36,269 bases of DNA from Fragilaria crotonensis (Eukaryota; Bacillariophyta; Fragilariophyceae; Fragilariales; Fragilariaceae): positions 1 through 36,269 of the forward strand of contig JAKSYS010000638.1 of NCBI GenBank assembly GCA_022925895.1. The letters are read 5' to 3'. Of the stretch, positions 113-35,612 are shown piece by piece; the stretch's first letter is position 1, and each line of letters starts with the position of its first letter. The notes under the pieces are model-generated. The model was not told the origin of the DNA and ran no database searches. It saw nothing but the letters and a program-made list of their open reading frames with translations. The position numbers and the translations under genes are program-made.

Positions 113-120
113 ACCTGGTA
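113..120 (+). promoter_or_regulatory. ACCTGGTA motif upstream of the PPR-like gene
   Basis: One of ten copies of ACCTGGTA/TACCAGGT in the window. It lies about 110 nt before the chosen start codon at 230. That it is a regulatory site is inferred only from its recurrence upstream of genes. Confidence 0.35.
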
Positions 121-229
121 GACTGTTCGCCGAGGTTAGAAGGAAGGAAAATCGTGCAATCGACATGTCATACCGTTGACCTGCTAGCTTTCAGCCTTCA
201 ACCAAAGGTGATAAACTGAGTACTCTCAC

Positions 230-3200
230 ATGCTGTCTCATCACCTGACCCGAAGGTCTCTTCGAGAATTACGCTACAGGCCCCGACTTCATCGATCCAC
301 CCTTGTCCACGAACGGAGGGCAGAATTTCCTCCGTTCCGAGCTTTCTCAGCAGGCAGTCTCATCAACAAATCAGACAATCCTCGATCGCAGCTCAGCGAG
401 TGGTACGATAAAGAACACGAAATCAAGATTTCGTATAAGAATTCCTTCCAAGTCGACGACCACTTTCACGATGGGAAGATCTGGTGGTCAGCTCGATTCG
501 TTTGTCCATTGACAATCAAGTCTATTACGCTGATTCTCCCGCATCGTACGCCGATCCGAAGAGTCCTTGGATGAAGGACAACGACGCAGCACCGATTCAA
601 TTCGAAGGCAAGGTCTTTTTCAGCAAACTTAAGACAGCGGTTCATGCAGCTGCAGCCAGGAGGTTGGACGCGATCGAAACTGCGCAGCAGGGCGGTAGCT
701 CATTGGAAGGCAGCCCTTCTTCCGATGGTGGTTTCGACGAAGCTGCCACCGGAAGAGAACATTGCAGCCGTAGACATTGCGTCCATGGAGGTATCCGCTG
801 TTCCGCTAGAAACAGACGAGTCAACGGAAGAAACCGCTAGTTCACTCGAAGCAAATATTCTTGATGTTGATACGGCTAAGGACTTGACCACATCAAAGGC
901 CTCCAAGGCTCTCCCACCACCCGGCAATCCTAGCGCCCACGGAAATCCTTTGGACACGCTCGCCATCTACTACAGCCGAATGAAAGTTCCAAAGTTCAAG
1001 GACGGGTTTGAAACAGTTATGCATAAGGACAAACATATTTTGTTGTGGTCAGCAACGTTTGTGTGTCCGATAACGGGAAAGAAGTATTGGTCCGGGACGT
1101 TGCGAGATGAATCGAATTATGGAGAAGCTAGCTATCTGAAGGGCACGCCTTACTATACTCGTCGTAAATCAGCCGTGCACGCAGCAGCGGCCCGGGCTAT
1201 TGATGACATGATGTTTTCCTTCACGAACGACGTGAATCTGCCTAGGCTTTGCTACGACGACCCCAGTCTCCCCAGGAAAATTTTTGTTCACCCCCAAGCG
1301 GATGATCGTCAATTAACGGAACCAGAGGACGACATCAGCCTCAGGCGGTTGGAGGAAGAACCCTCGGAGGAAACCGTCAGCCAGTCCGCGCTCAACGACA
1401 TCTCGTTTACTGTCCTATCAGATGTCTCCACTTCGGCGACGACTCTTGGGAGAGTTATGGCTGCCTGGGCTAACAGCGTCGCTGTGGAAAGCCATTCCTC
1501 GCGGCGGTCGTCGAGGCCAACACTTTCTTCGTCGACTTGGACTCCACTCCAAGAGCGACGCAGAATCTGTGACGAGGCCTTGTCTTGGCTGACGGCCGCG
1601 AATGATGCTGGAGGGCCCTCTCGCAAGTACACTCGGTTTCATTGCCCACTTCACGTGAATGCCCTGGAGGCGAGTAATGCCATTCTCTCCGCCCTGGGAA
1701 GGGCAAATGAAATCGAGAACGGTCGTGATGTTCAAGAACTAGCTGTCAAGGTTCTGACCTACCTTGCAACACGCACCAATCCGAATGCTGATACCTATGC
1801 TGCCTATTTCCAATGTCTTCACGGAGAACCGAAATCGGTGGCATGTACGGCGCAGAAAATCCTCGAGCAAATGATATCTGGCGAATTGGTCGATGGGAAA
1901 GGTTTTCCACCACCAACACTACAGGTGTTTAACACCGTGATTCAGCTGTGGGCAGATGCTGGTGACAGCGAGAAATGCCAGAGAGTGTTGGATTTGTTGG
2001 TGTCTTCAGGATTCGTTGCAAATCGCGACACCTGCTTTGCAATGTTGTCGGTGATGGCGCACCGAGCGTTTGACCCTGATGCCGCGAACGACCTGATCAA
2101 GCGAATAGGGATTATCGATGCGTTGGACGCCGAATTGTATTGTGCACCCCTTCGTTGGAGTGGCAAAAAAGTTGGGGCCATGAGGGTTAAATGGGATAAT
2201 GTGTCAGAAGTATTCTGCGACGGTTTTAAGGAGTCAGCAAGTGAAGATACTGCTCAGGAGGCTCGGGCTGTGGAAGCATGGGTGTCGAATATGGAAAGTG
2301 TCGTGGAGGTGAATACTACTAGCTGCTACGAGGCTGCAATACAAGCGTGGGTTCGTACTGGAACTTTGGAAGGCCTCCTTCGAGCCGAAGCCTATGCTCA
2401 GCGTTTGCTTGCCGGCACTTCCACGGTCGAGGGGATGAAGCCAAGCCTGCAATGTTTCTTTCCTATTCTTGCAGCTTGGACGTATAGCGGAGAGGACTCA
2501 TCAAATTTGAAGCGTTGGATCCATCGACTAGAATCAAGTGGGATTTTGCAAAACGACGGGAGGGTTACCTCGATGCTCATTCTTGCTAGTAGGCGCCGAG
2601 CAGAAGCACTCCTCCTCTCGAGCTCCGAGTATGACGTCGCGGAGGGAAACTTGATAGCGACGGAAGCATTCGAGGAGCTTGCTCGCGTATGTGACCAACT
2701 CATCAATCATAATTTCTCAGAGGAAGATCTCCCGTTTTACTTGGAAACTTCGGCCTTCTGCGACGCTATATCATGCATTGGATGTTTCGGCAAGCAGCGA
2801 GCTGAACACGACGATCTTGACGAAGCAAAAGCGGCTACCGAATTGATCCTTCAGGTGGTCGTGCGGTATCAGAAATTGATCCAAAGGTTAAGCGCTGTTG
2901 TGTCCGAAGGAGACCAAAGAAACAAACGCATTGAGTTTCCTGGCGACGGATCAAGTGAGGGCGCAGCTGCACCGTCGGCTGAGGTTGACCAACAACTGCG
3001 ATGTCTCCTTCATGGAGCTGCGGGAGTATATCATAGCGCCATCTCCTGTTTGGATGATATCGATCTAGCATCCCCTGCGACCGAGGAGGATAGCGAAGGT
3101 GATGAGTTACAAGAGGATTGCGAAGATGCACTAGGATCACTACGTATGACCCACCTTCCAGACATTGAAGGTATGGTGAGGAACGAGGCGGAGTGCAGCA

Positions 3201-3903
3201 TGTTGCTCGCATCCCTCGGTGCTTGCGAAGGCGGCGGTAGAATAACGTACCCTGATGGCTTTTCCTATGATGAAAACCCAGGAAAACACCTGAACTCGAA
3301 AGTGGAACTCCTCGCGAAGGTTGTGGATTCGTTGGCGAAGAGGACTACAGGCCAACATTTTAGCGATCAGGCAAGAATTCTGTGGCTCGTTGTTAACTTG
3401 GCCTCTGAAACGAGCCCAATGGAAAGTGACAGCTCTAAGTTATCTGACCTTTTCCTAGATGCAGCGAAAGTTCTTTTGGCCCAGGAGCAAATCGGCGAGG
3501 AGCAGGTTGTGACAAAGCATATCCTCAAGGTCATATCGCGCAAGATCGAGGAAACTGCCGGTTCACAGGGCTTCGATGCATTGTTAACTTCGAGCAGTGG
3601 TAATGCGAGGAGAAAGCCGTCAGTGAAAGTGAAAGCGAAAGCGAAAGTGAAAGCGGCACACGCGACAACCAAAGCCGTAAGGCAGGCGTTCAGCAAATCC
3701 AAACCTATTGAGGCTCCCAGTAAACGCGTGTCAAGCAAAGTCAAACCCCTTGAGTCTCCCGAAAAAAGCGAGATAAACAAAGGCAAACCCACGGAGGCTC
3801 AAAAAAACGCGCGACCGGCAAAGCCAAACCCATTGCTGCGGCTCCGAAAAAGCCGAAGCCCGCGTCGTCGAAGCGATACTCCGTAAATAAGGCGGCGTCG
3901 TAA
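230..3903 (+). CDS. PPR-like organellar RNA-binding protein with duplicated dsRBD-like domain; three apparent frameshifts
   Basis: A long frame is open from 644 to 3886, but coding similarity starts earlier. From ATG 230 the protein begins with an Arg/Ser-rich, acid-poor stretch like a mitochondrial presequence. A domain follows (WSARFVCP ... KTAVHAAAARRLDAI) that is repeated downstream near 1010-1210 as WSATFVCP ... KSAVHAAAARAIDDM. The Lys/Ala-rich final helix resembles the second helix of double-stranded-RNA-binding domains; this is inference. The middle (about 1680-2450) has helical pairs such as LQVFNTVIQLWADAG, typical of degenerate pentatricopeptide repeats. The tail is rich in Lys, Ala and Pro. 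The frame changes near 512 and again between 690 and 755. It changes once more at the A7 run 3801-3807; after a one-base correction the tail repeats continue and stop at 3903 instead of 3886. Corrected length is about 1,224 residues. A role in organellar RNA processing is likely but unproven. The start at 644 is the conservative alternative. Confidence 0.6.
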
Positions 3904-4059
3904 TCCTAGCAAAGCTTGACCCTGAATTGAATAGCATGAGATAAGTGCTATAAATAGAGTCTAGGAGTAAGTCCTAACAAACTGTTGGACTACACGATCC
4001 AGCGAGAGTTGGTCACTCTTCAATACTTGAATTGTAGTGACGAGTCGGAAACAAGAGGA

Positions 4060-5334
4060 TTACATCGTACGGGGTTTATTGGCCCTGGTACGATAGCGCT
4101 TATTGGTATGTTCCCGGGGATTCAACAAGATTTTGATGTACATCTCAGGCGTTACCCTCGAGCCAAACATTTGTGTCCGGCCATGCTTAGGGTGGTTCAT
4201 AGAAGTCTTCATCGTCGCCGTTGTGAAGTACCAATCCAGTTTGATTTCATCCTTTTCAAAAAACTCTACAAACTCATCACTCCCCGTAAACGTCCAACCA
4301 AACTCAGACGGGTCGGGATATAGCTCCAAAGAGACGCGACCAGCATGCGAAGGTCGAATCCCATTGTAGCGCTGAGCGTTTGATTTCTTCGCCTTGCGCT
4401 TACCTTGAACTTGGACTCGAGACTTCAATCTCTCAACCTCTTGTTGGGCCTTGTCGGTGTCCATAGCCGACATTTTGAGCAGAGCTGCTTCGATTTCGCG
4501 TAATTCTTGTTCATCCTGTTTTCGCATGTCCGCCTGGCGGTTGTGAGGGTTAGGATTGTTCGTCCACCGCTCACCCCATGCACTCTTTACTGCATTACGA
4601 GAGTCCCATTGCGGATTCAATTTCTTTAACAAGCGTTGCTTTCGCGCCTCGCCAGCACGTTTGAAAGCAGAGCATTCCTTCGTCAAAAGTCCGATCGACA
4701 CTGCAACAATGTCTGCATCCTCCTCCAATTCAGAGCACTGACGAGCATCCTTATCGAGCAGGCGAGAAATCTCTGAGTCTGCTAGAGCCAAGGCATTGTG
4801 AATCCTGTAGAGACTAATTTGATAGAAATCTGCTCCTGCCACCCACTGGGGCGGCGGGAAACTGCAGTTGCAGCCTTTCTTGGCAAAAATGTCGCTCTGT
4901 GTCGAGACAATTCGAATCATGAGCCTTCGCATACTCATTCCACCCTGATTCGGTGGAAGGGGAGTATGATTCAACATTGGAACGTCTCCACCATCATCCA
5001 TGTCTTGCTCCTCATCTTCCGAGCTGTCATCGCCATACTGAATGCTAGCAAACCGATTTCCATTCAAAGGAGGCATTGCAATCGAGCTCTGACCATGCAC
5101 GTGTTCACCAGCGGCATTGCCACCGGATGCTGCAGTGGATGGAGGAGGCACGGTGGGCGGATTGTCCCATTGATCTTCCAGATTGAGCAAGATCCTCTCC
5201 AAGTTAACCAATGATGCTAACGAGACGTCAATCATGGTTTCTGTGTTCGCTCGATGGCCATTAGTATGCAAGCAAGATGAGGCCACTGCAATCGCATCCA
5301 GCCATGCGTTGCTAACAACTTCGCCACTGCTCAT
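4060..5334 (-). CDS. Conserved hypothetical protein with C-terminal WTFTGSDEF segment
   Basis: A single open frame of 424 residues starts at the ATG complementary to 5332-5334. I do not recognise the family. The N-terminal 90 residues look helical. An acidic patch (SSEDEEQDMDDGGD) lies around residue 105. A charged, probably coiled-coil stretch rich in Lys, Glu and Arg covers about 270-320. The last 85 residues look the most structured, with the motif WTFTGSDEFVEFFEKDEI and a very basic end. No signal peptide or membrane segment is visible. The basic C terminus and acidic patch would fit a nuclear or nucleolar protein, but that is only a guess. It converges on the PPR-like gene about 160 bases away. 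Confidence 0.7.
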   Translation of the reverse strand: MSSGEVVSNAWLDAIAVASSCLHTNGHRANTETMIDVSLASLVNLERILLNLEDQWDNPPTVPPPSTAASGGNAAGEHVHGQSSIAMPPLNGNRFASIQYGDDSSEDEEQDMDDGGDVPMLNHTPLPPNQGGMSMRRLMIRIVSTQSDIFAKKGCNCSFPPPQWVAGADFYQISLYRIHNALALADSEISRLLDKDARQCSELEEDADIVAVSIGLLTKECSAFKRAGEARKQRLLKKLNPQWDSRNAVKSAWGERWTNNPNPHNRQADMRKQDEQELREIEAALLKMSAMDTDKAQQEVERLKSRVQVQGKRKAKKSNAQRYNGIRPSHAGRVSLELYPDPSEFGWTFTGSDEFVEFFEKDEIKLDWYFTTATMKTSMNHPKHGRTQMFGSRVTPEMYIKILLNPREHTNKRYRTRANKPRTM

Positions 5335-6215
5335 TTCGTCGATTTCTCGTCGAAAGTACAGGTGTCAACGATCAGAAACGATGTTGTCGTCTGTGCATCG
5401 AGTTGGCTCCAATTCGGATCATGCAGGAATTCTCATACTGCCAACAGGTAATCGGATTACTTAATTGTACTGGAGTACTTCGTACGCCACATACTGGGGA
5501 GATGTGCAGATACGTAGATACCAAGAAGAGGTTGCAGATAAATCGAATTGCCACTCACCTCCTCGTCGCCTGTCTCCGTCTCCATCAACCTCCATCCAAA
5601 AAAGGTTTCACAATACCATGGAGTAAAGGCCCAAACAGTTTTTTTAAAAACCAAATACTCTAAGGTATAGTGTACTCCGTACATTGTAGTACATACCGAG
5701 TTCCAAATCTCGTCTCAAGTAACGAAACCTTTCGGTGAAATGTCAGGATTTTCTCTATTCATCCTTCTTTAAGCAGTAAATATCGGACAGAAATAGAAAA
5801 AACACACTTGTTTCTGAAAAGGTGATGGATGCTGGAGTCCGTACTCCGGACAGAAGCTGAACAATGTCTGTCACATACGAGTACACATGAACGGTTGGAC
5901 CGACCGACGTGATAGCCCTCGTGATGAAGTTGTATCATACTGGAATACCTAACTGGAGTGCATACCTTCTACAAAGGTACTCGAGTAGAACTCCAGTACT
6001 CGTGCTCGATACTGGATTCGATACTACAGTACTGTACCCGGCAACCCATCGACCGCCCGACCGGAAAACAATCCCTTTCACACACTTCGATGTTTAAGCA
6101 TAGAGCCGTCGACGACCGATACACCTAACGGGTTTGGATCATCAATGTACCAGGTAGTAGTACTTAATACCTCATATCGGATACAGCGTTGCAGTCTTGG
6201 CCTTATAATTTCACC
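5335..6215. other. Divergent intergenic region, 5.3-6.2 kb
   Basis: No credible gene. The second half is rich in overlapping GTAC-containing palindromes (for example around 5980-6040). It holds one TACCAGGT motif 61 nt before the next start codon. It probably contains promoters for both flanking genes. Confidence 0.5.
6148..6155 (-). promoter_or_regulatory. TACCAGGT motif upstream of the ankyrin gene
   Basis: Copy of the recurring intergenic 8-mer, 61 nt before ATG 6216 and next to further GTAC palindromes. Function is inferred from recurrence only. Confidence 0.35.
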
Positions 6216-7433: not shown

Positions 7434-7474
7434 TAAAGGATGAAGGCTATAGGAAAACTGTACACTCGTTAGAT

Positions 7475-9426: not shown

Positions 9427-10779
9427 AATTGTAACAGGACTGCGCTTCTCTAAGAGAAGTGATGACTTCTAGGGCGATTGCGAATGATGCTTTGTTCACA
9501 GAAATACTCGACTATCGTATTATTAACAGGTACAGGAGAACTGAAGTTCATCGTCGTTACGATGGCAACCAAGTAACGACAGATGATTAACCTCGAAGTT
9601 CCAACCGCCTACGCGAATTGTACCGTAGACAGGTAGTGTAGTACTACATACAGTACATGTAGAGATTAGAATTAAACTCGTATTCATACATCGTACCAGG
9701 TACCAGCTACTGTACTCTATACCACTATACCTGGCACTGTACTGTGTCAAACGGAATTTCATCTTGGAAGCAGTTTGACCGTTACCATTCATAGCGCTAT
9801 AAGGCCTAATGGAATGATGTTGGAAGCAGTATATGCATAGATGACATTCATATTAAGTCCACGCTTCATACACAAAGATTTATATGAGTATCTTATGGCT
9901 TGTCGGATGTCCTCGTGTGAGGTCGTGTCGTCGTATATTGTTTCTCGGAATAATCAAGACAAAATGGAAGATTGAAGCGCTTAGAATACATCTTCTGGGA
10001 GTAGTCGGAGTACGACGGCGTGGGACGACGCTGAGTAAGAAGGTTCGGACTTTAAGACATTTGATCCGTCAGGACCATGACATTTGTGAGAATTCCGTTC
10101 TGGATTTTGCGAACTCGTACACGTACTGTATTCACCGGAACATCATCGAAGCACGTGCATTCTTAAGGAGTTCTTGGTATGATATGAGAATGAGACGTAA
10201 TTCGATTTTGTCTACGACATGACCTGGATCGTGATTTCCAAAATCATTGTACGACGCATTTTCGGAATACTCTTCGTCTCCGAGTACCTTCGATAAATGT
10301 CGAAGAGTGACGGTGTGTGGGCTGGATTTTGCATTCCCGTCGCCGCAGCTTGGAAAGTCATCCCGAAGTCCGGAAGTTCGAGACCCCGCTAAAGTATCAT
10401 TTCCTGGAATAGGATAAGATCGTTTGCCCCCATCCGTCAAGCACCTGCAGGTTATTGAACGCCCTTCATCGCTTCCTCCAGGAAAGGACTTGCGCCAAGA
10501 AGAGATCACGTCCACTCTCGTTGAACAATGGCGTTTCCTGAATCCAAATCCGTAAGTCAGAAGGCGCATGGCTGAATTGATTACTTCCGTATCAGTTTTT
10601 TATCAGATATCTATTTTTTCTACGTCGGAATTAGTAATCTGGGCACTTTCAGAACCCGCTAGAGACACTCCCCCCGTTTCGGATTCTTTCCCCCTCTACA
10701 AATCCCACACCGAAACCTCTCTCTGGCTGCCAAAATCGAGCGAACTCTCCGACTCATCAACGAAGAATGTTGAAACGAT
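9427..10779. other. Intergenic region, 9.4-10.8 kb
   Basis: No confident gene. The part 9,600-9,760 is dense in GTAC palindromes. A 145-codon ATG-started frame lies on the minus strand (10132-10569), and the 5' leader of the kinase gene should begin near 10.6-10.7 kb. Neither has recognisable domains. Confidence 0.45.
9694..9701 (-). promoter_or_regulatory. TACCAGGT motif upstream of the LtrA gene
   Basis: Copy of the recurring intergenic 8-mer, about 270 nt before the LtrA start, inside a GTAC-rich stretch. Function is inferred only. Confidence 0.3.
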
Positions 10780-14593: not shown

Positions 14594-15102
14594 GTGGACT
14601 GTGGACCAGTGCTGTTTGCGTCTCGCGAAGAAAAAATGTGATGGGTGCAAATGGATGGTGATGGTTGTCGGTGATAGGCGGTCGGCTGTTGTGCGCCATT
14701 GGCCAACAGTTTGTACATGCTCGCATGTGATGATACAAGGTGCAAGTACAGTACTACGAACTTGAAACTGGTACCAGTACTCCGTCTACTTTCGTCACAA
14801 TGAGCTGTACATATGATGATAAACCGTTACCTAAATCATATCTACAGGATCGACTATCTTTTGATATTTATCATTTATCATACTGTTATCAACTGTGCAT
14901 ATATTAACATTTCCATGATACGAAAATACACATGGTGAATGGTGACGTCAATTGTGAAAAGTTCCGTGGTTACGTAGTTACGTACTTGGAGTACTAAGAA
15001 CAAAATACTGACTGTCGGAATGGGCATATCTGGTATCTGCATTTACATTCAGTGGAATCATTTTCCTGCGGCGTTCGACACCTGCCGACCCAGCCGTTCA
15101 CC
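14594..15102. other. Divergent promoter region between two plastid-type genes
   Basis: Non-coding. It holds GTAC palindromes (ACTGGTACCAGT around 14767), an AT-rich core at 14.82-14.93 kb and a perfect TGACGTCA element. It may drive both flanking genes. Confidence 0.5.
14943..14950. promoter_or_regulatory. TGACGTCA, CRE/CCRE-like bZIP site
   Basis: A perfect cAMP-response-type palindrome 153 nt before ATG 15103. In Phaeodactylum, TGACGT elements (CCRE) mediate CO2/cAMP repression of a carbonic anhydrase gene. Here the function is inferred from sequence and position only. Confidence 0.4.
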
Positions 15103-16283
15103 ATGACGACGTTTCCCTGCATCTTCACCCTGGCCACATTGGTCGCGGCACTTACACCCATCTCAGGATTTTCGTTTGTATCGCTTGAATCAAGGGCATC
15201 TGTTGCAACTCAATTAAATATGGCAACATGGTCAGACTCACGAGCGGTGAGAGAATATCAAGACTTTCTTGCTTCCGGCCGTCAAGACATTGAGAAGAGG
15301 CCTGATCTACCAAGCGTCATTATCAAACCAGCCGTTGGCGACACTGAAATGGCCGACGCTATTTTTAAGATGGGTATGGGTGACGATGTTGTTCTGCTAC
15401 CGGGCCAAGAACCTCCTGCACAAATCGACGGTTTTGCCTCGTATCCAATTTACATCACAATTCCTCCACAACAACTGAAGGAGTTTCTGATGACTCTACC
15501 TGCATCACTCGAGGAACGGCGAGATGACTTTGTGTTTATTTCAGGAGGACCGAAGTATGGAAACATTGAGAAGACTCTCAAGGACACGGGATTTTGTCGA
15601 GATGCTATGACGCAGATGCTTGCCACAGGCTTCAAGATCAAGCCATTTATTCAGGACATCAGCGTTAAGCTTGGAACAAGTGCAAATGGCGAGGAAAAGA
15701 TAGCCGGAGAATGTGCAGCGTGTGGAAAATGGAGCGGTTCTGTTGAAGGACGATTGGGACGCAACAACATTGTGTGCAAAGCTGTGTTTTACCGGGAATG
15801 GCGTCGGCTTATGGTAAGATCTTCAAATTTTTCTGTTCCTTCTCTGAAAGACTTTTCTCATCAAACTGACTGTAGTGGGAGCGAAATATCTATGACGCAA
15901 TTTTCAATCTCGTGGGTGCAGTCCGAACTGAGCCGACAACGCTATGTGACGTCGCCTTGTACTATGGCGACGAAGTAAGTGAAATTGTGTGGCAGATTTC
16001 CGGCATTCTGCGAGGCATGAAAGCCATCACCATGACATACGGCTTTGAAGAACGGATGTTCGGAGTTGCAGAGAACACGGGATCCGACACGCAATGTGAA
16101 CTAGTGGATGACATGTTTCCTTACATGTTTGAGGCGTTTGAGATGGCGAGTATGGTGAACGAGTACTTGGGATATGCGCAAGACGAGCGAGGCCTCCTGC
16201 AAGGAGTGACATTAGCGCGGAAGCCTGTCGATAGCAAGCCGATCATGCGTCAAGGTAACCTCAGAGCTGACGGGGTAGTTTAG
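15103..16283 (+). CDS. Plastid-targeted conserved protein of unknown function
   Basis: Two exons, 15103-15813 and 15876-16283, are joined by a 62-nt intron (GTAAGA...TGTAG, phase 0), giving 372 residues. The ATG (CACCATGAC) is the first in frame. A signal peptide (MTTFPCIFTLATLVAALTP) is followed by SGFSFV; a Phe just after the predicted cleavage site is the diatom plastid-import signature. The mature part includes EMADAIFKMGMGDDVVLL, a CAAC pair at residues 205-208, and a helical C-terminal half around ERNIYDAIFNLVGAV. The central region recalls ketopantoate-reductase-like folds only vaguely, and I see no GxGxxG dinucleotide motif. I do not assign a function. Confidence 0.8.
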
Positions 16284-16660
16284 ATTTTAGATCCATTACT
16301 GGCTGCAGTATGCTTTTCGTGTTGCCTCCATGGACAACGTTACTGGTTGTAGTCTAGTGAGCGGAGAGCGGGTAGCAGAACAACAAGCTATTTCAAAGAC
16401 TATGGTACTCATACCAAAGCCTTGGGAAGATCGCCAGACAGAAAGTTTAGCTGTAAGATTTGGGCTCATCATCTGTCCCTAACATGGTTGACCGCAGTAC
16501 GTAGTTCTTCTTCGGTGCTGTAGGCGATAAGGCCTACGGCTGCCACTTCTTTTCAACTCTATAGTACAAGTAGTACGTGTATGACGGTACTTTACCAATC
16601 AGCCGGTACAGTGCCGACGGCGAGTGGATTCGGTGAGAAACACAAGTACAGTACTATAGT

Positions 16661-16675
16661 ACCTGGTACCTGGTA
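16661..16675 (+). promoter_or_regulatory. Two overlapping ACCTGGTA motifs
   Basis: Two overlapping copies of the recurring 8-mer within a GTAC-rich palindromic stretch. This is the one cluster not directly upstream of a start codon; it lies 380 nt after the stop at 16283. Confidence 0.3.
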
Positions 16676-16800
16676 TGGTACCACCCTTCCCCATAAAGAC
16701 CTACATGTACTACATAGTAGTCTACCGGTAGCTGACAAATTCTGGCGTTTCACCATGGTCGTCATATGCCATTTTTGAAATCTAACCATGTATGTACCAG

Positions 16801-17560
16801 TACACTAATTTATACAGGCATCTCCTTAAGACAAAACACCTTGTCTCGTTGAAGTTGTAAGTCTCTCCATCCATGATTGATAGTACCAGAAGTCAGATTA
16901 TCAATACCACAATAAAATTCATATCCTTAAAGTGATGTTTTAGGTACTTGTGTGACCATGATAGTAGGACAATGGTGGATTGTGTACCTTCACATAGAAG
17001 CATTGGAATGTTTTCATTTATAGAACCTGGCTGTAGGAGTGGTGCCATGCGTCCTCATTGTACCATCATAACAAGAATAGTTGCGTTGTCTGCTGGGAAC
17101 AACAAGGTTGTACCTGCAAGAATCAAAACACAGTGGCCAGCCACGGATCAAGATAGCATAGAGGAGGTTAGGGTTTTGACATTAGGGGTCAAAATGCTAG
17201 AGTGCACAATTTCTTATCCCAACATTCCAAAAACATAACCATCATGAAGGCATCCTACAATGCTTTCCTACTCAAGGAGACAGAGACAGCCAGCACCTTA
17301 TGCTTGTTAGAATTAGTACAGCCTGTGAGTTCTTTTCTCTTCCAATGTTTGGTGAGGCATGTGGTACTCTCTTTAGTTACATCATGGTTGTTTGAATTGT
17401 CACAACATAGCATATGTGTCTTCTAGGAGGGGCGGGGAAATGGGAATTGTAGCAATGTGCCAACTTCTGATGCACCATTTTCAATATCACAGCCATTGGT
17501 AGTATCCCTTGGAATGAGTTAGTGCCCTTGAAATGCTGATGTGTTTGTGGTTAATCAATT
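16801..17560. mobile_element. CpG-depleted tract, possible decayed transposon
   Basis: I count about six CpG in 760 bases, against roughly four or more per 60 bases in nearby exons. TpG and CpA are abundant. All frames are broken. It shares the 14-mer GACAATGGTGGATT with the larger CpG-poor tract (16968-16981 and 30647-30660). It is probably an old, methylated repeat; the family is not recognisable. Confidence 0.4.
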
Positions 17561-20551: not shown

Positions 20552-20953
20552 CAGTTCCGCTGTTTGAACAAGTGTCCTTGTTTTCGCATCGGTGCCGTTG
20601 TTGAAGTCCACCGATGGCACCCTACTACTGTGCTACTGACACAAAAGGCCAGTGCTATTGTACGACCGGAGAGTAGTATCGGTTCATCGGTGCTAACCAG
20701 CTGTTGCTTGATCGTGGAATGGTTCTACCGGTAGCTGGTAGTTTAAGGAAGATGATGCCGCTACCTTCACTACGGCTATAGCTGTACCAAATACCACTGC
20801 AAGGATGGCGGCATGTTGCATTCTTACAAATACTTAAATTCAAACCACCTGTAACATCATGACGGACTTGATCTCCAAGAACTCTGACATTACAGAATTT
20901 GCATGCATGGTTTCCAACGTAGTTGCTCGAAGGTTCTTGTGCCGGAGAAATCA

Positions 20954-21118: not shown

Positions 21119-22104
21119 ACTCCTAGTAATGGTAACGCGTACCCCCTCAACGCTATCGGCAAATAAACGGGGGCGTTGACAGGGAACAGTATTTGTAAAG
21201 TGCAGTGGATTGATAAGGAACCTGCCTTATGGTCCATTTAACTATGCATCTGTCCTTACGCAATCGAACAGAGTTGATGCCGTCGCTGGATAGTTCGTTC
21301 AGTCCGCCGACAAATTGTGACACAATTGTGTACCACAGTTACAGGTCGATCGACATCATTACAACTAACTTGTCAGTTAGACAAATACGGTAACAGAACG
21401 CTCATTCTTATCGTACCCCGACCACGTGCTTGCTCACAACATTGAAAGGCTTGTTCAAGCCAGATGGAACAGCCGATGGGACGCTGAGAGAAATTTCTGA
21501 TACTTTCGATTTCTTGATCTTCGGTGCTACGACTGGGATCTTGAGCGCTCTGGAAGCACCAACAACAACTACGGTGGAAGAAACAAACAAAAAATGTGAG
21601 CCTTTCGGTTTCGTGTCGACCAAGAAGCAACTCGGGACGACATCGTTAATACTCACCAGACTCGAATGGGACAAAGCTCTTGAATTGAGCTGGTAACCTG
21701 TGGCGAGCAAGGCAATAGAGAGGTGTAAGTCCAATGTGTTACAAAACAATCATTCGTGTGACGTTGAAATTCCTTCACGCAATGGTTTTGGTTAACCCAG
21801 ATGGGAATCCCGCATCCTAAACCGCAGGAAAACGCAACAATTCGATTTATCGCAACTGTTCCTTGCTTTCTGAACAGTCTCTTACCCAGTCATGATGGTC
21901 TTATTGGTAATGACACGAGGAATCGAAGACATGGTGTACTCAACAACGATGTGTTCAATGGCAATTATCACTTCACTTCGCCGATTGCTGTTTTGATGAC
22001 GTGTCGGTTGGGTGCAAGTGTGGGTTGTTTCAAGCTTCACGGACTCGAGAGTAGACTTGTACTTGTACACCATGGCAACGGAGAATACGGTGCCTGGTAT
22101 ATTT

Positions 22105-22112
22105 TACCAGGT
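22105..22112 (-). promoter_or_regulatory. TACCAGGT motif upstream of the SAP-domain gene
   Basis: Copy of the recurring 8-mer, about 340 nt before ATG 22451, facing an inverted near-copy (CCTGGTA) about 13 bases upstream. Inferred regulatory site. Confidence 0.35.
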
Positions 22113-22450
22113 GCACAAGTACTGCTTCAGTGCAGATCATCGTCTTCGTATCCGTGCATCTGTGTCGGTGTGTCCAACCAAAGTACATCATAACTTAGAT
22201 ATTCGTGTATGGTTAGTTTTAACCACTACTCGCTACTCGCTACTCGTTCACTGGAGTGCTACTCGGACCGTGTATTGTACTACAGTATGTAATACAGTAC
22301 GTGTCTACACTGGATATGTACTATGTGCTACTTGCGCCATCTGGAATCTGGATGCTTGCTGCTACAGCTGACAGAACAAGTGTATCGAATTGACAACTGA
22401 CACCAACATATGATCAATGATCACTCTGGCAAGTGGAATGATATACGTCC

Positions 22451-23237: not shown

Positions 23238-24066
23238 TTAAAGATGATAACAAATAGATGGAGGAGGAGGAAATGTTCCATTCCATGCTACGTTTATCGC
23301 GTTTAGACAGGACCTGTCATTTGACATTTGATTGAGAAAGGTTGAGTTCGCTTCATTGTTTTGGGTGCGATGCAATTCCGTTATCTTGTCCTCAGCTCCG
23401 CGGCAATATGCCAGAATCTGAACCTGTTCGTGAAAGTATTTGCGATTGTCACCTCCGTCATTCTGACATTCTGTAGTTATGCGCAAATCAAAAGTTACGC
23501 GTGCAAAGTGCTCCCCGTACACAGCAACCAGGTTGCTATACTCCCAACCTGAGATCAGAAAGGTCTCTCCGTAGTTGAAGGAAACAAGTTCCTCGAATGT
23601 CTTCGCTTGCATCTTTCCATCGTAGTAGAGGCCACTGAACAGTGGAGCATCCACAATGTCGTTCCACAGGGCATCTAGAACAAGACAGCTCAGCTGACTT
23701 CGAGTTCCAAAAACTTTCGTTTGAAGTACGTCCATCAAGGTAACTTGGATATCTGGACAATTCGACGAGGCGGGAGCTCCATGAGGTTCAATTTGATGCC
23801 TAAACGCATGTTCGTACCCAATATTGTTGGAAACACCTTGAAGTTCATCGTCCTGCTCCCGAATTTGCACCAGCGAATGCGAATCGGTAAGTTGAACGTT
23901 GTCGGAGATGTTGTCCGTTCAAGAAGCTTTCACTCACCAAGTTACCAGTCAGCACATGGTGCTCGTCATGGTCACAAATCTGACCTCGGCTTTCAATGCA
24001 GACGGCGCTGACACAAGCGGCAAGTGCGAAGCCCATAAACCCAGACGAAATCCCAGAAATCTGCAT
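23238..24066 (-). CDS. Predicted secreted protein, unknown family
   Basis: Two exons, 24066-23938 and 23852-23238, are joined by an 85-nt phase-0 intron (GTGAGT...GCAG), giving 247 residues. A signal peptide covers about residues 1-23 (GFALAACVSAVC). The mature protein has eight or so Cys residues and a compact central part with VLDALWNDIVDAPLF and FGTRSQLSCL. The C terminus contains NGT sequons and ends PPPPSICYHL. No membrane helix follows the signal peptide. The family is not one I recognise; an extracellular or frustule-associated location would be an inference from the signal alone. Confidence 0.65.
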
Positions 24067-27120: not shown

Positions 27121-27462
27121 CCTATTCTATTCGGCGTTGTGATTGAAAAATTGTCTTAAAAGGACGATGAGCTCGAACTGCTTGCTCGAATCTTGACAAC
27201 TTGTTGAAACCTTGGACGATGTGTAGGTGACAATTCAGATTGGATGGCGAGTGTAGGCGAGGTGTCGAGTGTCGACTGTTTGGCAACCTCCACCCGAGGT
27301 TGAATTTTGAACTGGGATTTCATCGGTGCATATCCGGAACGTCATCAATGGGCAGTCCAACTTTTTCCGGGTGTCTAATCGTCCCACCACTCACAATCCC
27401 CTATCCCTATCCCCAATTCCACAGTGTCGAATGAGGACAGTGCACGCGTCATCCAGTAGTAG

Positions 27463-27470
27463 TACCAGGT
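27463..27470 (-). promoter_or_regulatory. TACCAGGT motif upstream of the 905-residue gene
   Basis: Copy of the recurring 8-mer, about 340 nt before the start at 27120. Inferred regulatory site. Confidence 0.35.
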
Positions 27471-27757
27471 ATGAGGTACTACGACAGTTATTAGCCTCCT
27501 CTTTTTGTCAAGTCATGCTGGCGAGCGAGTGACGAGTGCTTGAGAATCTACCGTAGTAACATGGCTGTCCCTTGTAAGACCGACCTTCCATGTCTTGCTT
27601 GAAGGGGTTTCATAGCTGTCGAACAACAACTTGCTGTTGACTCAGCATTTATTGTCTTGATGCTGTCATCTGATCATGCGCAAGATCTTGCCAACCAAAA
27701 TAGAATTACGACAATTTCATCAACTTCCACTTCAAAACAATCATCCCTTTGGACGCA

Positions 27758-27805: not shown

Positions 27806-27958
27806 TTTGCAAAGGTCACCAGCTGCTTGAACATAAACAAAGACACTTGCAAGCAAGTACAGTAGCTAGTCATCAAGCAAAAATGACACTTTCATGACAA
27901 TTCACCGACAAATTTGCTACACATCCATTCCTCGTCCACCTTAGTGCTTCCTCCTCTG

Positions 27959-27993
27959 CAACCAGCCAGCAGCCACGACCATCTGGCTGGTTG
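27959..27993. repeat. Perfect 11-bp inverted repeat
   Basis: CAACCAGCCAG and CTGGCTGGTTG flank a 13-base loop. The left arm repeats the sequence of the hairpin 200 bases earlier. Confidence 0.65.
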
Positions 27994-28535
27994 TCTTGCT
28001 GGATCCGCCGTATCACGTTCATGGTACCCAAGCCAGAAGCAGGCATAAAAGCACAAGCATACATGGAATTCTTCATTAATAAATGCACAAGTTTACATGA
28101 CTAAATGGCTTTAAGAAATGAGTTCATTTGGATTCTAAACTTGCACCAATCAATTCCCCAGTATCCAAGCCTTTTCAATTCCAGATGCACTCGTCCTTCA
28201 TCTTTTTGTCCCTTTCTGCAATTATCTTTGAAGGATGATGCTTCTCATCTCTGGACCAAACTGTCAGTCATGAACCTACTTGGTTTAACCTTGGTGTTGC
28301 CAGGCCTCATAATAGAAGTTTCCTCTGACAACAAGTGGCATTGAATTTGGATAGAATACCTTAATGACTGATGTGGCTTGAATAGAAAGGTTGTGCTTTT
28401 TAGCTTGTTCCTCCTTGGTCAGCACCATTTAAATCAAGGCTGCTGTCAGTTCAAACACAGTCCTAGATTGTTGGAAGTGGTTTGAAAAATAATTTCTGGA
28501 AAGGGCATGGAACTCACATTACTCAGTATGCTTGT

Positions 28536-28611
28536 GCTGCTGGGTCTATTTTCCCTTGATGCCCACACTGTGCTTTACTAGCAGATGTTAAATGTCAATT
28601 GACCCAGCAGC
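28536..28611. repeat. 11-bp inverted repeat with 54-base spacer
   Basis: GCTGCTGGGTC at 28536-28546 pairs with GACCCAGCAGC at 28601-28611. It lies inside the zero-CpG stretch. Confidence 0.5.
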
Positions 28612-28985
28612 TTTTTATAATAAATGACATTCCAAAGTAGGATTGAAATGCCTGCAATAACGCCAATACCGCAGTTGTATACATCGCTTGTTTAGATGAT
28701 GAGAAGGCAATGTTTCAAGGAAAGAAAAAGGCAAAGAACACCTTCCTCCTGCTGGATAGCAAGCCAGAATTCTGATCAACTGGTGGAGGAGGTTCATAAT
28801 GCCTTGAATTATCCAATAAAGCTGTTCCATATGTCAAAACTTTTCTTGTTCTCTCCTCCTCCCAATATTACTTTGGTGGAATGATTCTGTGACCAATTGT
28901 CAGAAGACAATTACTATGCCAGGGTCAATGGTCATCAGACTTGGAGAGTTATGCAACTCGTACTGGTCTGATCCCGGCCATTGAT

Positions 28986-29030
28986 AATGGTAGGGTCAAG
29001 ACTTGCAATACCAGTCTTGACCCTACCATT
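28986..29030. repeat. Perfect 18-bp stem-loop
   Basis: AATGGTAGGGTCAAGACT at 28986-29003 is the exact reverse complement of 29013-29030, with a 9-base loop. A second imperfect stem lies just outside (about 28924-28983: CAATGGTCATCAGACT against GGTCTGATCCCGGCCATTG). No T-run follows, so it is not an obvious terminator. It may be the core of a foldback element. Confidence 0.75.
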
Positions 29031-30376
29031 GCTTATTACATGTAAGGAGTTGCAAAACCAATCTCAGTCTTATCCTGACGGACCACGCGAATGGTTGTGG
29101 TCAGGAAGGTCAACGAAGAGCTCCAAACACCCTAGTAATTGACAACCCTGTGGAGACAGCTGTTGCAACACTGAAATTAACCATGCATCCATAGTGTGCT
29201 TTAGAAACAAGCACTGACATTAGCATTCAGGCCAATTGTCATGAGTATCACAACTGTTCATGCAGCAGTCATTGATTCATCTTTGAATAACCACCAATAC
29301 AACTTCACTAAGCCATTGATATATAATTCCTTGCTATTGTGTCTGGTATGTACTATCCTTGTTGAGGCCATATCATACCAGGCCATCTACAAAAGTTCAT
29401 GATGAGAGCAAGCACCTTTTCTTAGTAGGGCTTCACACTCCCCACCAAGCAATGCATGATGCACCACATCAGATGTGACCTTTTCATGGAAACCTTCCTC
29501 AAAAGCCCATCTTGATGAAGTTGGTCATTGTGGTGCTCTCCTCCTGTCAACAGTCACCATCACAACCCCTCATTAGGTCTTAGATTTCTGCACTTCTGGT
29601 AGGATATTGACCTTCATGCATGCCTGTGGTGGTGCCATGCATCACCAACTCATCGCAACTGCATGTCTACTAGGTTGTGTGACCAACACAACAAAGTACT
29701 AATCGTGCATTTGCACACAACTTGCAATTGTGTTTACCACTATTTCTGCTCATCCGTTGATGGAAAACAGAACAAAGCAGCCCATAAAGCTCAACTATGG
29801 GGGTGAAAAATTCAGTGAAGCCCTCTCAAAGGCAGCACATTCCACCCTGCTTGGCAGGGTTGGACTCTTACTACGACCTCCGAACGGGTTGCTGCAAGTG
29901 TACCTCCAACAAAAAATACTCCGAGTACACCATGCGCCACTACTAGTAGCTAGGTATGCCCTGTGTTCCTATGAGGTGACCCAGCAATAGTGGATTGGTG
30001 CTGCACTATACAACCTCCGATGCGGAGGCAGTTTGTAAGCACTCTGTTGTTTTCACTGTGATTTTCTTCACATGCGCGGCTACTAGTTTCCCTCACTCTG
30101 CCTGCCAAATGAAGGATACGGTGTACACTTGATACCAGAAGCTACAGGTACAAGTTGTGAATTTCCTTTACTGGACCATGCTTGCTTACCTGTGTGCACT
30201 CAAACCGTTGCAGTGGTGCTTGTTGGAACTAGTCTGACAATCTTTTGTTGGAGGTACCCTTGCAACCTGTTTGGAGCTAGCACAGTCAGCCAACTAGTGG
30301 CAGTTTGCAAGATGATCAATTACAAAAAGAATGAGCTTGTTATCAACTTAGTCTTTAATGTCCTGATGTCCTGACC

Positions 30377-30499
30377 GCCAGGCATTCCGGTTGGTCATCC
30401 TATGGTACAACAGTTGGACTTTCTGAATGGATCCTATCATGATATCAGGTTATTCAGACATGCCAACACTAGGATTGGCTGCCTGGCTAGGATGACCAA
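30377..30499. repeat. Two crossing inverted-repeat pairs
   Basis: GCCAGGCA (30377-30384) pairs with TGCCTGGC (30480-30487); TTGGTCATCCTA (30391-30402) pairs with TAGGATGACCAA (30488-30499). The order is A, B, A', B', so both stems cannot nest. The pattern is that of an H-type pseudoknot, or of rearranged foldback arms. Confidence 0.6.
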
Positions 30500-31084
30500 T
30501 GGGATAGAAAAGCTCCCAGCCATGTCAAGACTGTGGTTCTAGATCATAGTAGTAAAGCTCACTCTTTTATCTGATGATAGTAGATCAAAGTTGCATGCTG
30601 CTACTCCTAGATGATTTAACTGAGTTACTTGTAGAGTCAATCCCTTGACAATGGTGGATTTACCGCACTTGCAGGGGATTTGAGTGATTTCCAAGACAAG
30701 CCGAGACCACCACCTGTGCAGACCCAACACCCAACACGCGTCATTCGCTCGTACCGTCTGTCCGGGCGTCCGAATATCGAGTCTACTGGTGCATACACTT
30801 GTATGATACATGGAACATGGTACAACTACTGTGTGTAACCTACGAGATTGTACTAGCAGTGGTAGTAACACGACATCTCGACATGGGCGACGAGGTCATT
30901 TTGCTCCTTGGTCGACTGCCATGGCACTTCACTCTTTCAACACAGTGGCGCATCTTTCGACTCGACAGAATACAGCTTAGAGTTTCGTCGTCGTATTGCT
31001 ACAGTCGCCACAGTAACCATATTCACGGCTGTTTTTCACTGTTGTTGCGCTTCGTCACCGTTCAGGAGAGCAGTAAAGGCATCA

Positions 31085-33481
31085 ATGACGCGACTGTGGG
31101 ACAGTCTGTTCGGACGAAAGAAAAAAATAGCAGAAAAAGATGTAGACTTATCCACTGGAGTGGGGTCGACATCAAGTTCGGGAGGACCTGCAATCTTTCG
31201 TTTTACAGTCCCTGACAATGTCAGTCCTGGCGAAGAATTTCAAGTTAATGCAGGAAGTAGAATTGTGAAAGTAACGTGCCCCCCTGATTCCGGACCAGGA
31301 CAGTCTCTGCAGATAACAGTTCCAGTGGATCCAAGTGGCAGTAGCAGTGGACCTCCTTCTCCCAATCCAGAAATCCCTACGGATTCTCCAAATGTTAGAA
31401 GAATCAATGATCCAAACGCGACGGGAGGACCTGCTGCGTACATGGTCACCATTCCTAATGGTGTTCTCAGTGGTCAGCAATTCCCGATCATTATTCAAGG
31501 ACATCAACTCATTGTTACATGCCCCCAGAACGCTCGACCTGGAATGGAGGTTCGAATCGTACCCTCCCCACATCCAGACGGTGTAGATCTGACCAGGGGT
31601 CCCAGTAGTGGTCCGGATGGCTCGGGACAGTTACAGCTCTTCGAAGTTGAAGTGCCACCCGGCGTTCAACCAGGTCAGCCGTTTGCTCTCATGGCCGGAG
31701 GCGTTCGGATTCTGGTCACATGTCCACTCAACGCCTCACCTGGACTGCGCATTCGATTCAAGGTGCCACTCGCCCTTATGCAAAAACCTAAGACTACCAA
31801 CGCGGCTGCAAGAATCAAGCTCTCCTACGACAAAGACGGTTGGCAGCGCACGATTCGCCTGTCAGACATGAAGTTCCAGTGGGTCCGCGTCGATGGCAAA
31901 GGTGATATCGAGAATAACACAAGATTCCACATTACCAAATCAGCCTACGTGCGCAAGTTGCAATTCAGACCAGGAACGGATCCCCGTATCCGAGCTGGAA
32001 TCTTGTCCCTAGTTCCGGCCACAGAGGGTGTGGTCGATTCCAGGATCATGTCTACCGATAAGCGAGACCTGGTCTCCTATTCGGATATTGCCAACGCACA
32101 AGTAAAGGCATTTGAAGAAAAGGCTCAATGGTTCCAAAGCAAATGTGCTTCATTGTGTGCGGAATGGCATGAGGGGCACGTGCGCATCAAGATTCGACGT
32201 CAATTCCTGCTGCGAGATTCCGTCGACGCCGTCATGTCTTTGAAAAGACAAGATCTTCGCAAGTTGTGGCGATTTGAGTTTATTGGAGAAAAGGGTATTG
32301 ACGCTGGTGGGCTTGCAAGAGAATGGTTCCAGCTCGTAACAGAGGGCGTATTCAATCCAGACATGGGTCTGTGGCAGTCGAGTGCCGTCAATCAAATGTG
32401 CATGGAAATCAACCCAGCAAGCGGTACGTATGTATTTCGTAGGACTCCCTTTGGTTTTTGGACCAAACTGGTGTCGTCTCATTTCGCGCACGTTTTCACT
32501 CGTTCACATCGGTGATCGTATTCAGAATTCTGCTGCGAGGATCACTTGATATACTATCGATTCCTGGGTCGCGTGATGGGCAAGGCGCTGCTTGACATGC
32601 AATTGGTCGCCGGACACATGGTTCAAAACATTTACAAGCACATTCTTGGTTGGCCCATCACTTTCAGCGACTTGGAAATGGTGGACGATGAGTATTTTCA
32701 TCACCTGAAGGCGCTGGAAACGATGAACCAAAATGGAGATGATCTTGAAATGCTTTGTTTGGACTTCAGCATGACTCAAGAAGTAATGGGAATCAAGGAA
32801 ACAATTGAGTTGGTCGAGGACGGTGCCAACATTGACGTGACGAACGAGAACTTGCCAGAGTACTTAGAGGCTTGCCTAAAGTACCGAATGCTCGATCGCG
32901 TGAAACCGCAGTTGAATGAATTACTGCTCGGATTCTTTGATGTCATTCCTGAGCCACTCTTCACAATTTTCGATTTTCAGGAACTTGAGCTCCTCATGTG
33001 TGGTCTACCTAAGATCGAGATGGCTGATTGGATGGAACACACAGAATATTCAGGCGAGTACGATGGTATCGGAGTTAATCATCAATCATGCAAATGGTTC
33101 TGGGAGGTGGTTGCTGAGTTTGACCATGAAATGAAGGCGCGTCTGTTGCAGTTTGTGACTGGAACGTCCGGGGTCCCAAGTCGAGGTTTTGGTGTCCTGC
33201 AGGGTAACGACGGCAATATTCGCAAGTTCACCATTCATGGTGTCGCTCTTGGTGTCTGCCTCTATCCTCGTGCTCAGTAAGTGATTTTGGCTGTTGCAAG
33301 GTGAGCCGAGTTCGCTTTTGACTTTGTTCTCACACTTAATACAATCTTTCGCTCGCTCTATTGACGCCACAGTACATGCTTCAATCGTCTCGACTTACCG
33401 CTGTACGAATCGAAGTCTGAATTGGAAGAGAAATTGAAGCTTGCTGTAACGATGCTTGCCACTGGTTTTGATATCGAGTAG
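31085..33481 (+). CDS. HECT-type E3 ubiquitin ligase with three N-terminal PG-rich repeats
   Basis: Exons are 31085-32423, 32526-33276 and 33373-33481, with introns GTACGT...TTCAG (102 nt) and GTAAGT...CACAG (96 nt), giving 732 residues. ATG 31085 is the first in frame. Residues about 35-83, 116-165 and 185-234 are three copies of a roughly 45-residue repeat: (F/Y).V.(V/I)P..V..G..F....G....VTCP....PG. The HECT domain follows: the N lobe has IGEKGIDAGGLAREWF and YYRFLGRVMGKAL; the C lobe has TGTSGVPSRGF. The active-site HTCFN is split by the last intron, with catalytic Cys699 34 residues from the end, the usual distance. HECT ligases take ubiquitin from E2 as a thioester and pass it to substrates. 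The repeats probably select substrate or membrane; their role is unknown. Confidence 0.92.
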
Positions 33482-33977
33482 GGTCGGCAAGTGTAGGTGT
33501 AGTGTTAGATTTTAGTTATATTAGGAAGGAATGTTAAGGCAGAAAAACGTTTAATTTTCCAGGCTTTTGCTATGGACGTGCCATTCAAACCAGTGGCACA
33601 AAAGCGAATTGATGGTAGGTTTGTGTGCCTGTGAATGCTGCTGGTGTTCGGTTTGGGAGCGACAGCTGTAATTAATTCTTTGAAACCCCGGAGGGGCTGC
33701 GGTCACCGTGAATTCCTCAACTTCGCGAAAGAACAGAAATGAGATGCTCAAGCCGAACGCTGGTAGAATTCCAGGCATTTGTGAGCTGAGACTTGATAGA
33801 CCCGGCTGGACGCTGTACTCTAAAAACGTGGAGCAGCCTCTCTCCTGTCTCCTGGAATCCTTGCGACGATCGCGCATTTTATAAGTGTAAAAACGTAGTG
33901 TACTACTACTAGGTACTCCACAATATATTACCCGTTGTCGATCGATGAAGTACATCCTAGAGGTACCTTGTCTTCGC
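33482..33977. other. Convergent intergenic region between HECT and DRG1
   Basis: About 500 bases holding the two 3' ends. A 135-codon minus-strand frame is present but has no domain and sits in 3'-flanking sequence. A short GTAC/TACTACTACTAG stretch lies near 33.90 kb. Confidence 0.5.
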
Positions 33978-35315
33978 CTATCCTCTCAGCTTCGTATGCT
34001 TGACCTTCTTGGCCTCGAACTTCTTCTTGGCATACTTATCTGCGAATCCTTGAACTATTTTCTGGTAGTTCTTGTCCTGCCGTTGCTGATTGTTGGTCTT
34101 CGTGACAATCTGCACCACATCCTCATCGTCAAGTAGGTGTGAGAGTCCACAACGTTGGGGTGAATGCTTGGCACTTGTTCCCCACACCAAGGCATAGTTG
34201 AAATCTCGGAGCATTTGAGTCGAAATGTTACCGCAAAGGGAACTGACAGCAGTCCCTTTTCGGATTGCACTCAATACGACAGGTTCCGCTAAATCGGGTT
34301 GGTCTCCTCGTCGCTTGGTGTACACACGAGTGAGACCGAGGTACTCCCACATTTTCGCCTTGAGTGGGTCATCTTCCAAAGGATGCCCAATATTGAATCC
34401 TTGTTTCACAGATCCGACCAAGGAATGCGGCATACGGGCTAAGGAATCGATTTCTTCAATCGTCACTGTATCAATCTTGTTGTACAGATAGAGACATGGT
34501 TTGTACTCTCGATTCCCCTGAATCACATCCACAAGTTGATCAACTGTTATATCTTCACGAGCCAATAGGTCGGCATTGCTAACCTTATACTCTCTTAATA
34601 TCTGCGTCGCCACCTTCACTGGATCAGGTCCCAATTTGGTCAAGGTCACTGTCGACGCAAACTTGATTCCACCGGTAGCCTTCTTCGTAAATGTCACGTT
34701 CGGTGGTCTTTGATTAAGCCGAATGCCCACTGTTTCCAACTCCTTTTCTAAAATTTCACGATGGCGGTTAAGCCCTTCCTTTCCCGCATCGAGTACGATC
34801 AGAATCGCATCGGCATTTCGGGCGACAGCAATGACTTCTCGTCCGCGTCCTTTGCCGTGCGCAGCACCTTCGATAATTCCCTGGCAAATCTAGAATTTGA
34901 ACCTTGGATCCCTTGTAGTGCATAGTTCCGGGAATGCAAGTTAGGGTTGTAAATTCGTAATCTGCTGCTTCTGATTGTGTCGCCGTAAGCTGATTCAATA
35001 ACGAGGACTTTCCCACGGATGGAAATCCAATAAGTGCCACACGGGCGTCTCCCAAGCGGGCGACATCAAACCCTTCGCCAGCGCCTCCACCTCCACCACC
35101 ACCTTGTTCGACAAGAAGATCGTTCCGAAGCTTTGCAAGCTTGGCTTTCAGGGTTCCTAGATGATACTAGAAAAGGCGAGCGGAAATGGTCGTTGAGTTC
35201 GAGGTGAGCTCAAGTATGGTTGGATCAAGCGAGGTAGACTTACGTTGGTTGCCTTATTCTTTTGCGTTCGGGCCATTTCGGCCTCGATCTCTTTGATGCG
35301 TTCCAAGACTCCCAT
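33978..35315 (-). CDS. DRG1: Developmentally regulated GTP-binding protein 1 (DRG1)
   Basis: Two exons, 35315-35244 and 35166-33978, with a 77-nt intron (GTAAGT...TTCTAG). Exon 1 encodes [20 protein letters not shown], nearly the textbook DRG1 start. The OBG/DRG GTPase fold has G1 GFPSVGKS (71-78), a switch FTTLTC, G3 DLPG (117-120), G4 NKID, and the DRG-specific [14 protein letters not shown]-like C-terminal part contains [13 protein letters not shown]. An extra base in the run 34879-34881 breaks the frame just after DLPG; removing one gives [17 protein letters not shown]. Corrected length is 419, against 367 for human DRG1: the surplus is a seven-Gly loop near residue 46 and a basic 37-residue tail. 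DRG1 works with DFRP1 on translating ribosomes to relieve stalling. Confidence 0.93.
34879..34881 (-). other. One-base surplus breaking the DRG1 frame
   Basis: The invariant DLPGIIEGA block is read in two frames around this CCC run (GGG on the coding strand). Exon 2 is one base longer than a multiple of three. A consensus error is likelier than real loss of an essential gene. Confidence 0.7.
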
Positions 35316-35515
35316 GGTGAATAAAAGCAGTGGCAACGACAATAGAATTTGACTCAAGAGATGTTGTTGAAGACGCACACCGAGACTGGTTAGGAATGTA
35401 GAATGGCTTTACATTCGTTGCTACTACAGGTAGTATGAAAAGAGTTGGTTTGACAGTTCAATGTAGTACTCAAGTATTCCGAGTTGACGTCCACTGCAAA
35501 ACTACAAGTACTTGT

Positions 35516-35523
35516 ACCTGGTA
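35516..35523 (+). promoter_or_regulatory. ACCTGGTA motif upstream of DRG1
   Basis: Copy of the recurring 8-mer about 200 nt before the DRG1 start. Inferred regulatory site. Confidence 0.35.
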
Positions 35524-35590
35524 CTAGAGTACTTGCATACCGCTGCATTGACGCGGTCCTTGTGTATACTTGAATATAGGACATGCCGGT

Positions 35591-35612
35591 ACCTGGTACA
35601 GCTGTACCAGGT
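35591..35612. promoter_or_regulatory. Perfect 22-bp palindrome made of two motif copies
   Basis: ACCTGGTACAG is followed directly by its reverse complement, so the recurring 8-mer is present twice, head to head (35591-35598 and 35605-35612). It lies about 280 nt before the DRG1 start. A dimeric protein could bind it; this is inference. Confidence 0.5.

Follow-up and report, generated by a model that had tools for sequence, protein, structure and literature searches.

An Enriched Palindromic Word, GTACCWGGTAC, in TAC/GTA-Rich Intergenic Islands of a Fragilaria crotonensis Contig

Gene Content and Location of the Copies

The stretch analyzed here, referred to as the window, comprises 36,269 nt, positions 1–36,269 of contig JAKSYS010000638.1 (assembly GCA_022925895.1) of the diatom Fragilaria crotonensis, which carries repeated copies of a short word, the 8-mer ACCTGGTA/TACCAGGT, in its intergenic DNA. 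Fourteen gene models were predicted from open reading frames (ORFs), Pfam matches, a coding score and start codons. Their products include Pfam domains for ankyrin, PX, kinase plus kinase C-terminal domain, methyltransferase, tubulin-tyrosine ligase, SAP and HECT; the LtrA and PPR matches fell under the curated cut-off, and the DRG1 protein matches Rbg1/DRG1 structures. ARAGORN found no tRNA in the window and Rfam gave no match at the gathering threshold. Some predicted N-termini, such as the one encoded from position 15103, resemble on visual inspection a signal peptide carrying a phenylalanine motif, which would suggest an ochrophyte-type plastid. Additionally, the 9-mer TTCACCATG occurs six times on both strands, with three of these occurrences (6210, 15097, 35313) at the start codons of gene models, suggesting that it is a preferred start context.

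The ten copies of the 8-mer merge into eight clumps, listed below without strand:

112–120, CACCTGGTA: palindrome broken by one mismatch; the PPR-like gene starts 117 bp downstream (230); outside the called TAC/GTA islands
6148–6156, TACCAGGTA: the ankyrin gene starts 68 bp downstream (6216)
9693–9703, GTACCAGGTAC: complete 11-bp palindrome, lying 268 bp upstream of the LtrA-like start (9426, minus strand)
16660–16675, TACCTGGTACCTGGTA: two overlapping copies, 7 bp apart; no identified start codon near
22105–22113, TACCAGGTG: one mismatch; the SAP-domain gene starts 346 bp downstream (22451)
27463–27471, TACCAGGTA: 343 bp upstream of the start of the 905-residue gene (27120, minus strand), in a small island at 27456–27482
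35514–35524, GTACCTGGTAC: about 200 bp upstream of the DRG1 start (35315, minus strand)
35589–35613, GTACCTGGTAC then TACCAGGTG: 276–290 bp upstream of DRG1, with a perfect 22-bp palindrome at 35591–35612

By the predicted gene models all ten copies are intergenic and none is genic, and the models with corrected starts give the same count. Two mechanically called ORFs (21801–22193 and 22012–22371) run across the copy at 22105, and a stop-to-stop frame (9523–9852) runs across the copy at 9694; the coding score places no coding segment over either copy.

Enrichment and Symmetry of the Word

The ten copies compare with a mean of 0.59 and a maximum of 4 in 100 dinucleotide shuffles of the window. 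If one mismatch is allowed there are 43 matches against 19.6 expected, a figure that takes in the exact copies as well as their near-palindromic opposite strand. An initial annotation, made from the letters of this DNA, had reported the 8-mer at ten positions, absent from exons and in excess over chance; all ten coordinates proved exact, the excess is borne out by the shuffles, and the predicted gene models agree with the absence from exons.

The 8-mer is the core of a palindrome, GTACCWGGTAC. The shorter form TACCWGGTA fits seven of the ten copies exactly, while those at 112, 22105 and 35605 have one end base altered, and four copies match the whole 11-mer. TACCWGGTA occurs seven times in intergenic DNA and never in genes, whereas intergenic shuffles give 0.06 occurrences, and the triplet CWG occupies the middle of 7 of the 15 intergenic TAC-N3-GTA words. 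Likewise, ACCT-n0-GGTA came top among some 360,000 tests of 4-mer dyads (10 vs. 0.49 expected, p = 1.4e-10, not corrected for clumps).

Counted on clumps, the 8-mer heads the list of intergenic 8-mers, and TACCAGGTA that of the 9-mers, under order-1, order-2 and order-3 nulls. After correction for all 8-mers, the clump-based E-values of the former are 0.0004, 0.029 and 0.038, respectively, and those of TACCAGGTA are 0.00007, 0.012 and 0.015; the nulls were trained with the copies included, which makes these values conservative. The word is thus enriched over a composition-matched background on this window, and on 36 kb we regard that enrichment as real but not overwhelming.

Position Relative to Start Codons

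Distances were measured to start codons, not to transcription starts, and they, the island simulations and the E-values were computed with corrected start codons; the gene at 23238–23918, whose start is ambiguous, was excluded from all start-distance counts. In order along the window, the copies lie 117, 68, 268, 1629, 1622, 346, 343, 201, 276, and 290 bp from a start. Eight of them are therefore 68–346 bp upstream of the PPR-like, ankyrin, LtrA, SAP, 905-residue and DRG1 genes, in agreement with the 60–350 nt of the initial annotation for eight copies and the same six genes.

The word also shows a positional bias relative to start codons. Seven of the eight clumps lie at most 350 bp upstream of a start, a zone that comprises 4238 of 14782 intergenic bases (28.7%; binomial p = 0.001), although this limit was drawn from the finding itself and the test is not independent. 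With other limits the counts are 7/8 within 400 bp (p = 0.002), 5/8 within 300 bp (p = 0.029) and 2/8 within 200 bp (p = 0.42). Among the eight upstream copies, ACCTGGTA reads with the gene in four and against it in four, and this balance fits a near-palindrome or symmetric site.

TAC/GTA-Rich Islands

The copies are embedded in a broader feature. The combined rate of TAC and GTA in intergenic DNA is 2.1 times that in genes, and GTAC is counted 108 times, with 50 in shuffles. Of the 17 TAC/GTA islands above the threshold, the first gene models place 13 in intergenic DNA and 4 in genes; one of the latter (20623–20794) lies upstream of the corrected tubulin-tyrosine-ligase start. Twelve islands were used in simulations, leaving out those at 2314, 4061 and 32424 (in genes) and at 10117 and 21118 (short intergenic). 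The principal islands, again without strand, are:

5436–6184: 58 matches, between two divergent genes, one copy
9505–9742: 32 matches, upstream of the LtrA-like gene, one copy
14713–15008: 28 matches, between the divergent methyltransferase gene and gene 15103–16283; no 8-mer
16497–16815: 40 matches, two overlapping copies; no identified start codon adjoining
20623–20794: weaker island, 15 matches, upstream of the tubulin-tyrosine-ligase-like start (20551, minus strand); no 8-mer
22051–22331: 31 matches, upstream of the SAP-domain gene, one copy
30751–30867: 15 matches, upstream of the HECT gene start (31085); no 8-mer
33887–33966: 13 matches, immediately downstream of the DRG1 stop and thus contrary to the promoter rule; no 8-mer
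35398–35880: 48 matches, upstream of DRG1, three copies

Scattering the same TAC/GTA matches over intergenic bases yields 12.1 islands on average, so the number of islands is in itself unremarkable. Six islands, however, score from 23.1 to 44.2, above the 95th percentile of the best island in that scatter null (22.4), and in order-1 simulations, which average 5.6 islands, no score exceeds 20.2.

The density of TAC/GTA peaks a short way upstream of genes: per 100 bases there are 1.9 matches at 1–50 bp from the start, 3.5 at 51–100, 7.3 at 101–200, 6.9 at 201–300, 5.5 at 301–400, 3.3 at 401–600, 2.9 at 601–1000, and 3.7 at 1001–2000. Genes themselves have 1.8, and intergenic DNA that lies upstream of none of the counted starts has 2.7. 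Among 32 trinucleotide pairs, TAC/GTA has the strongest bias to the interval 51–400 bp upstream (z = 8.6; the next pair, 3.7), and circular shifts inside intergenic DNA reach the observed bias in 0.1% of cases. In this interval 9 of 13 genes exceed five TAC/GTA per 100 bases, compared with 1 of 14 for downstream stretches, several of which are very short.

Nine of the ten copies are inside TAC/GTA-rich islands. By clumps, the count is seven of eight in islands that make up 19.5% of intergenic DNA (p = 7e-5), a test that is partly circular and not fully independent of the motif, since islands are defined by trinucleotides that the motif contains. The islands, as the broader feature that holds the word, and its palindromic symmetry both go beyond the initial annotation.

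The top-scoring island, at 16497–16815, is followed by no coding signal. At 16748–16758 it contains TTTCACCATGG, similar to the start-codon contexts at 6210, 15097 and 35313, but a stop follows after a few codons; the island may belong to an unannotated, decayed or noncoding gene. As a separate observation, the island upstream of the SAP gene contains three exact tandem copies of CTACTCG (22226–22246).

The Palindrome Against Island Composition

The twelve islands were simulated 300 times with an order-3 model, masking the motif copies in training. The 8-mer is seen 9 times against 0.54 expected and TACCWGGTA 7 times against 0.27, and none of the 300 simulations reached either count; on this window, the palindrome exceeds what island composition gives. 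Other words stay near expectation at order 3: AGTACT (14 vs. 10.3; 53/300 simulations reach), TACTAC (22 vs. 19.3; 90/300) and TACWGTA (9 vs. 6.3; 55/300). GTAC, as a 4-mer largely fitted by the order-3 null, occurs 76 times against 64.9 at order 3 (26/300) and 68.7 at order 2 (56/300).

The palindrome does not stand wholly alone, as a weaker excess of other paired words persists, indicated by TAC-N2-GTA at order 3 (15 vs. 7.3; 3/300) and by AGTACT at order 2 (14 vs. 7.8; 4/300). There is no general inverted-repeat texture: with gaps of 0–39, TAC/GTA pairs are inverted about as often as direct (713 vs. 690).

Other Features of the Window

In an otherwise gene-dense window, the segment 27121–31084, nearly 4 kb, is without a strong coding segment; this long stretch contains a perfect inverted repeat at 28986–29030, with 18-nt arms and a 9 nt spacer. 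On visual inspection, the part of the HECT ubiquitin ligase gene that encodes the N-terminus (31085–32515) contains three repeats that carry a VTCP motif, and the HECT stretch gave no match against phages. No relatives were confirmed in viral, phage or prokaryote collections.

A Candidate Binding Site and Its Rivals

With moderate confidence, we favor the view that GTACCWGGTAC (core TACCWGGTA) is a palindromic, orientation-free site predicted to be bound by a protein in several promoters of this genome. TACCWGGTA would be one preferred word inside TAC/GTA-rich islands located about 100–400 bp upstream of start codons. We infer a host protein that would bind as a homodimer, recognizing two GTACC half-sites one base apart, and additional copies in one island, overlapping at 16660 or mirrored at 35590–35613, would increase its occupancy. 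Once bound, it would activate transcription at unrelated genes by holding the promoter open or recruiting the transcription machinery. Judging by their arrangement, the pairs at 16660–16675 (overlapping) and 35590–35613 (mirrored) look like local multiplication of sites.

Several observations weigh against this view. The corrected E-value of the 8-mer is just 0.03–0.04 on eight clumps at order 2 or 3, and the order-3 excess of TAC-N2-GTA shows a second paired word in the islands. The islands 16497–16815 and 33887–33966 are not upstream of any identified start. Neither are the copies at 16661 and 16668, which lie 378 bp beyond the stop at 16283, with the next modeled start some 1.6 kb away. Half of the twelve islands have no copy (14713, 20623, 29869, 30117, 30751 and 33887). 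Additionally, two of the nine genes with more than five upstream TAC/GTA per 100 bases use one common island, and four of the 13 genes stay below this density: PPR, at the window edge (3.9), the PX kinase (0.9), the 18290 ORF (1.7) and the 905-residue gene (2.9).

Part of this evidence would be expected if the 8-mer were the commonest word of a mutational or compositional texture, in which TAC/GTA DNA builds up in promoters through open chromatin, templated palindrome growth or slippage and no protein reads the word. The islands without a copy, the equality of inverted and direct pairs, and the near-expected counts of AGTACT, TACWGTA and TACTAC at order 3, and of GTAC at order 2, all point that way; however, a texture already accounted for by the order-3 simulations leaves the 8-mer and TACCWGGTA far above expectation, and does not explain why nearly half of the intergenic TAC-N3-GTA words have CWG in the middle. 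We consider such a texture possible but doubtful. A word picked by eye out of 36 kb could also be a product of chance, and the E-values at orders 2 and 3 are modest enough to allow for it; the first rank under three nulls, the order-1 E-value and the location bias argue otherwise and make chance improbable.

The copies could instead pair together and act as a hairpin, in DNA or in the RNA of the 5′ untranslated region. Folded with DNA parameters, three of the eight loci beat their shuffles (22055–22163, z = −4.1; 35466–35574, z = −1.9; 35550–35658, z = −2.2), one of them with the perfect 22-bp palindrome, but at the other five z lies between −1.0 and +0.8, so that most copies do not fold better than shuffles; together with the lack of an overall excess of inverted over direct pairs, this leaves a structural role hardly probable. 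Ten dispersed copies with an identical core would also be expected of the conserved remnant of a small mobile or dispersed repeat. Nevertheless, when the eight clumps are aligned together with some 30 bp of flank at either end, the only invariant columns are the eight of the core, no copy falls in the 20 direct-repeat families listed, of at least 60, and the copies cluster near starts, and we find such an origin very improbable. Of the two alternatives offered in the initial annotation, reading the word as a general promoter element, not a regulon, fits the proximity of seven of the eight clumps to starts, while a dispersed micro-repeat, in the sense of a copied element, is not supported, as the flanks do not align. 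A 5′ splice donor (CAG|GTA) was likewise rejected, as there is no strand bias: CAGGTA is sense in four of the eight upstream copies and antisense in the other four.

Comparison with Known Motifs

The closest known system appears to be TABASTA, similar in kind but a different word. TABASTA is the most abundant motif reported in a study of promoters in the diatom Fistulifera solaris, where it was found within 500 bp upstream of the predicted starts of 2113 homoeologous genes in one subgenome and 1588 in the other; its patterns include TACAGTA, it is enriched in genes of particular annotations, and genes with it tend to higher expression than the homoeolog without it (PMC5935921). Both are short TA…TA words in diatom promoters, but TABASTA has seven bases and no CCWGG core, and TACCWGGTA is outside its consensus TA[CGT]A[CG]TA. 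The TABASTA pattern is also present in our window, separately from the palindrome, with 27 intergenic occurrences against 10.3 simulated (largest 23) and 5 in genes.

SBP/SPL-type factors, a family of the green lineage, bind sites with a GTAC core in green plants and algae. The resemblance is in a palindromic GTAC core in promoters; the difference is that GTAC in the islands is near its order-2 expectation (76 vs. 68.7) and the longer palindrome is not. Zinc-finger factors including ZEB/Snail and Zelda bind CAGGTA/TACCTG. The palindrome contains one CAGGTA, but these are animal sites and not symmetric, and the window gives no sign of such a factor. Titles and opening lines of abstracts among the matches listed did not name TACCWGGTA as an algal promoter motif, in searches where strings of bases can match primers. 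Searched by term, the main text, as available, of PMC11267843, PMC12538271, and PMC4686930 contains no GTAC, CCAGG, CCTGG, TACC or GGTA.

Implications for Diatom Promoters

The promoter grammar of diatoms and their relatives is, to our knowledge, poorly known. As a speculative and rather unlikely extension from this one contig, ochrophytes might mark a large class of promoters with TAC/GTA islands of 100–700 bp, read by a dimeric protein through GTACCWGGTAC and related GTAC half-sites; in this lineage, such islands would play the part that CpG islands, or the sites of yeast general regulatory factors, play elsewhere. The combination of a compositional island with a specific palindrome would constitute a simple promoter signature that can be tested genome-wide, useful for annotating starts and as a handle on the protein that would read the palindrome.

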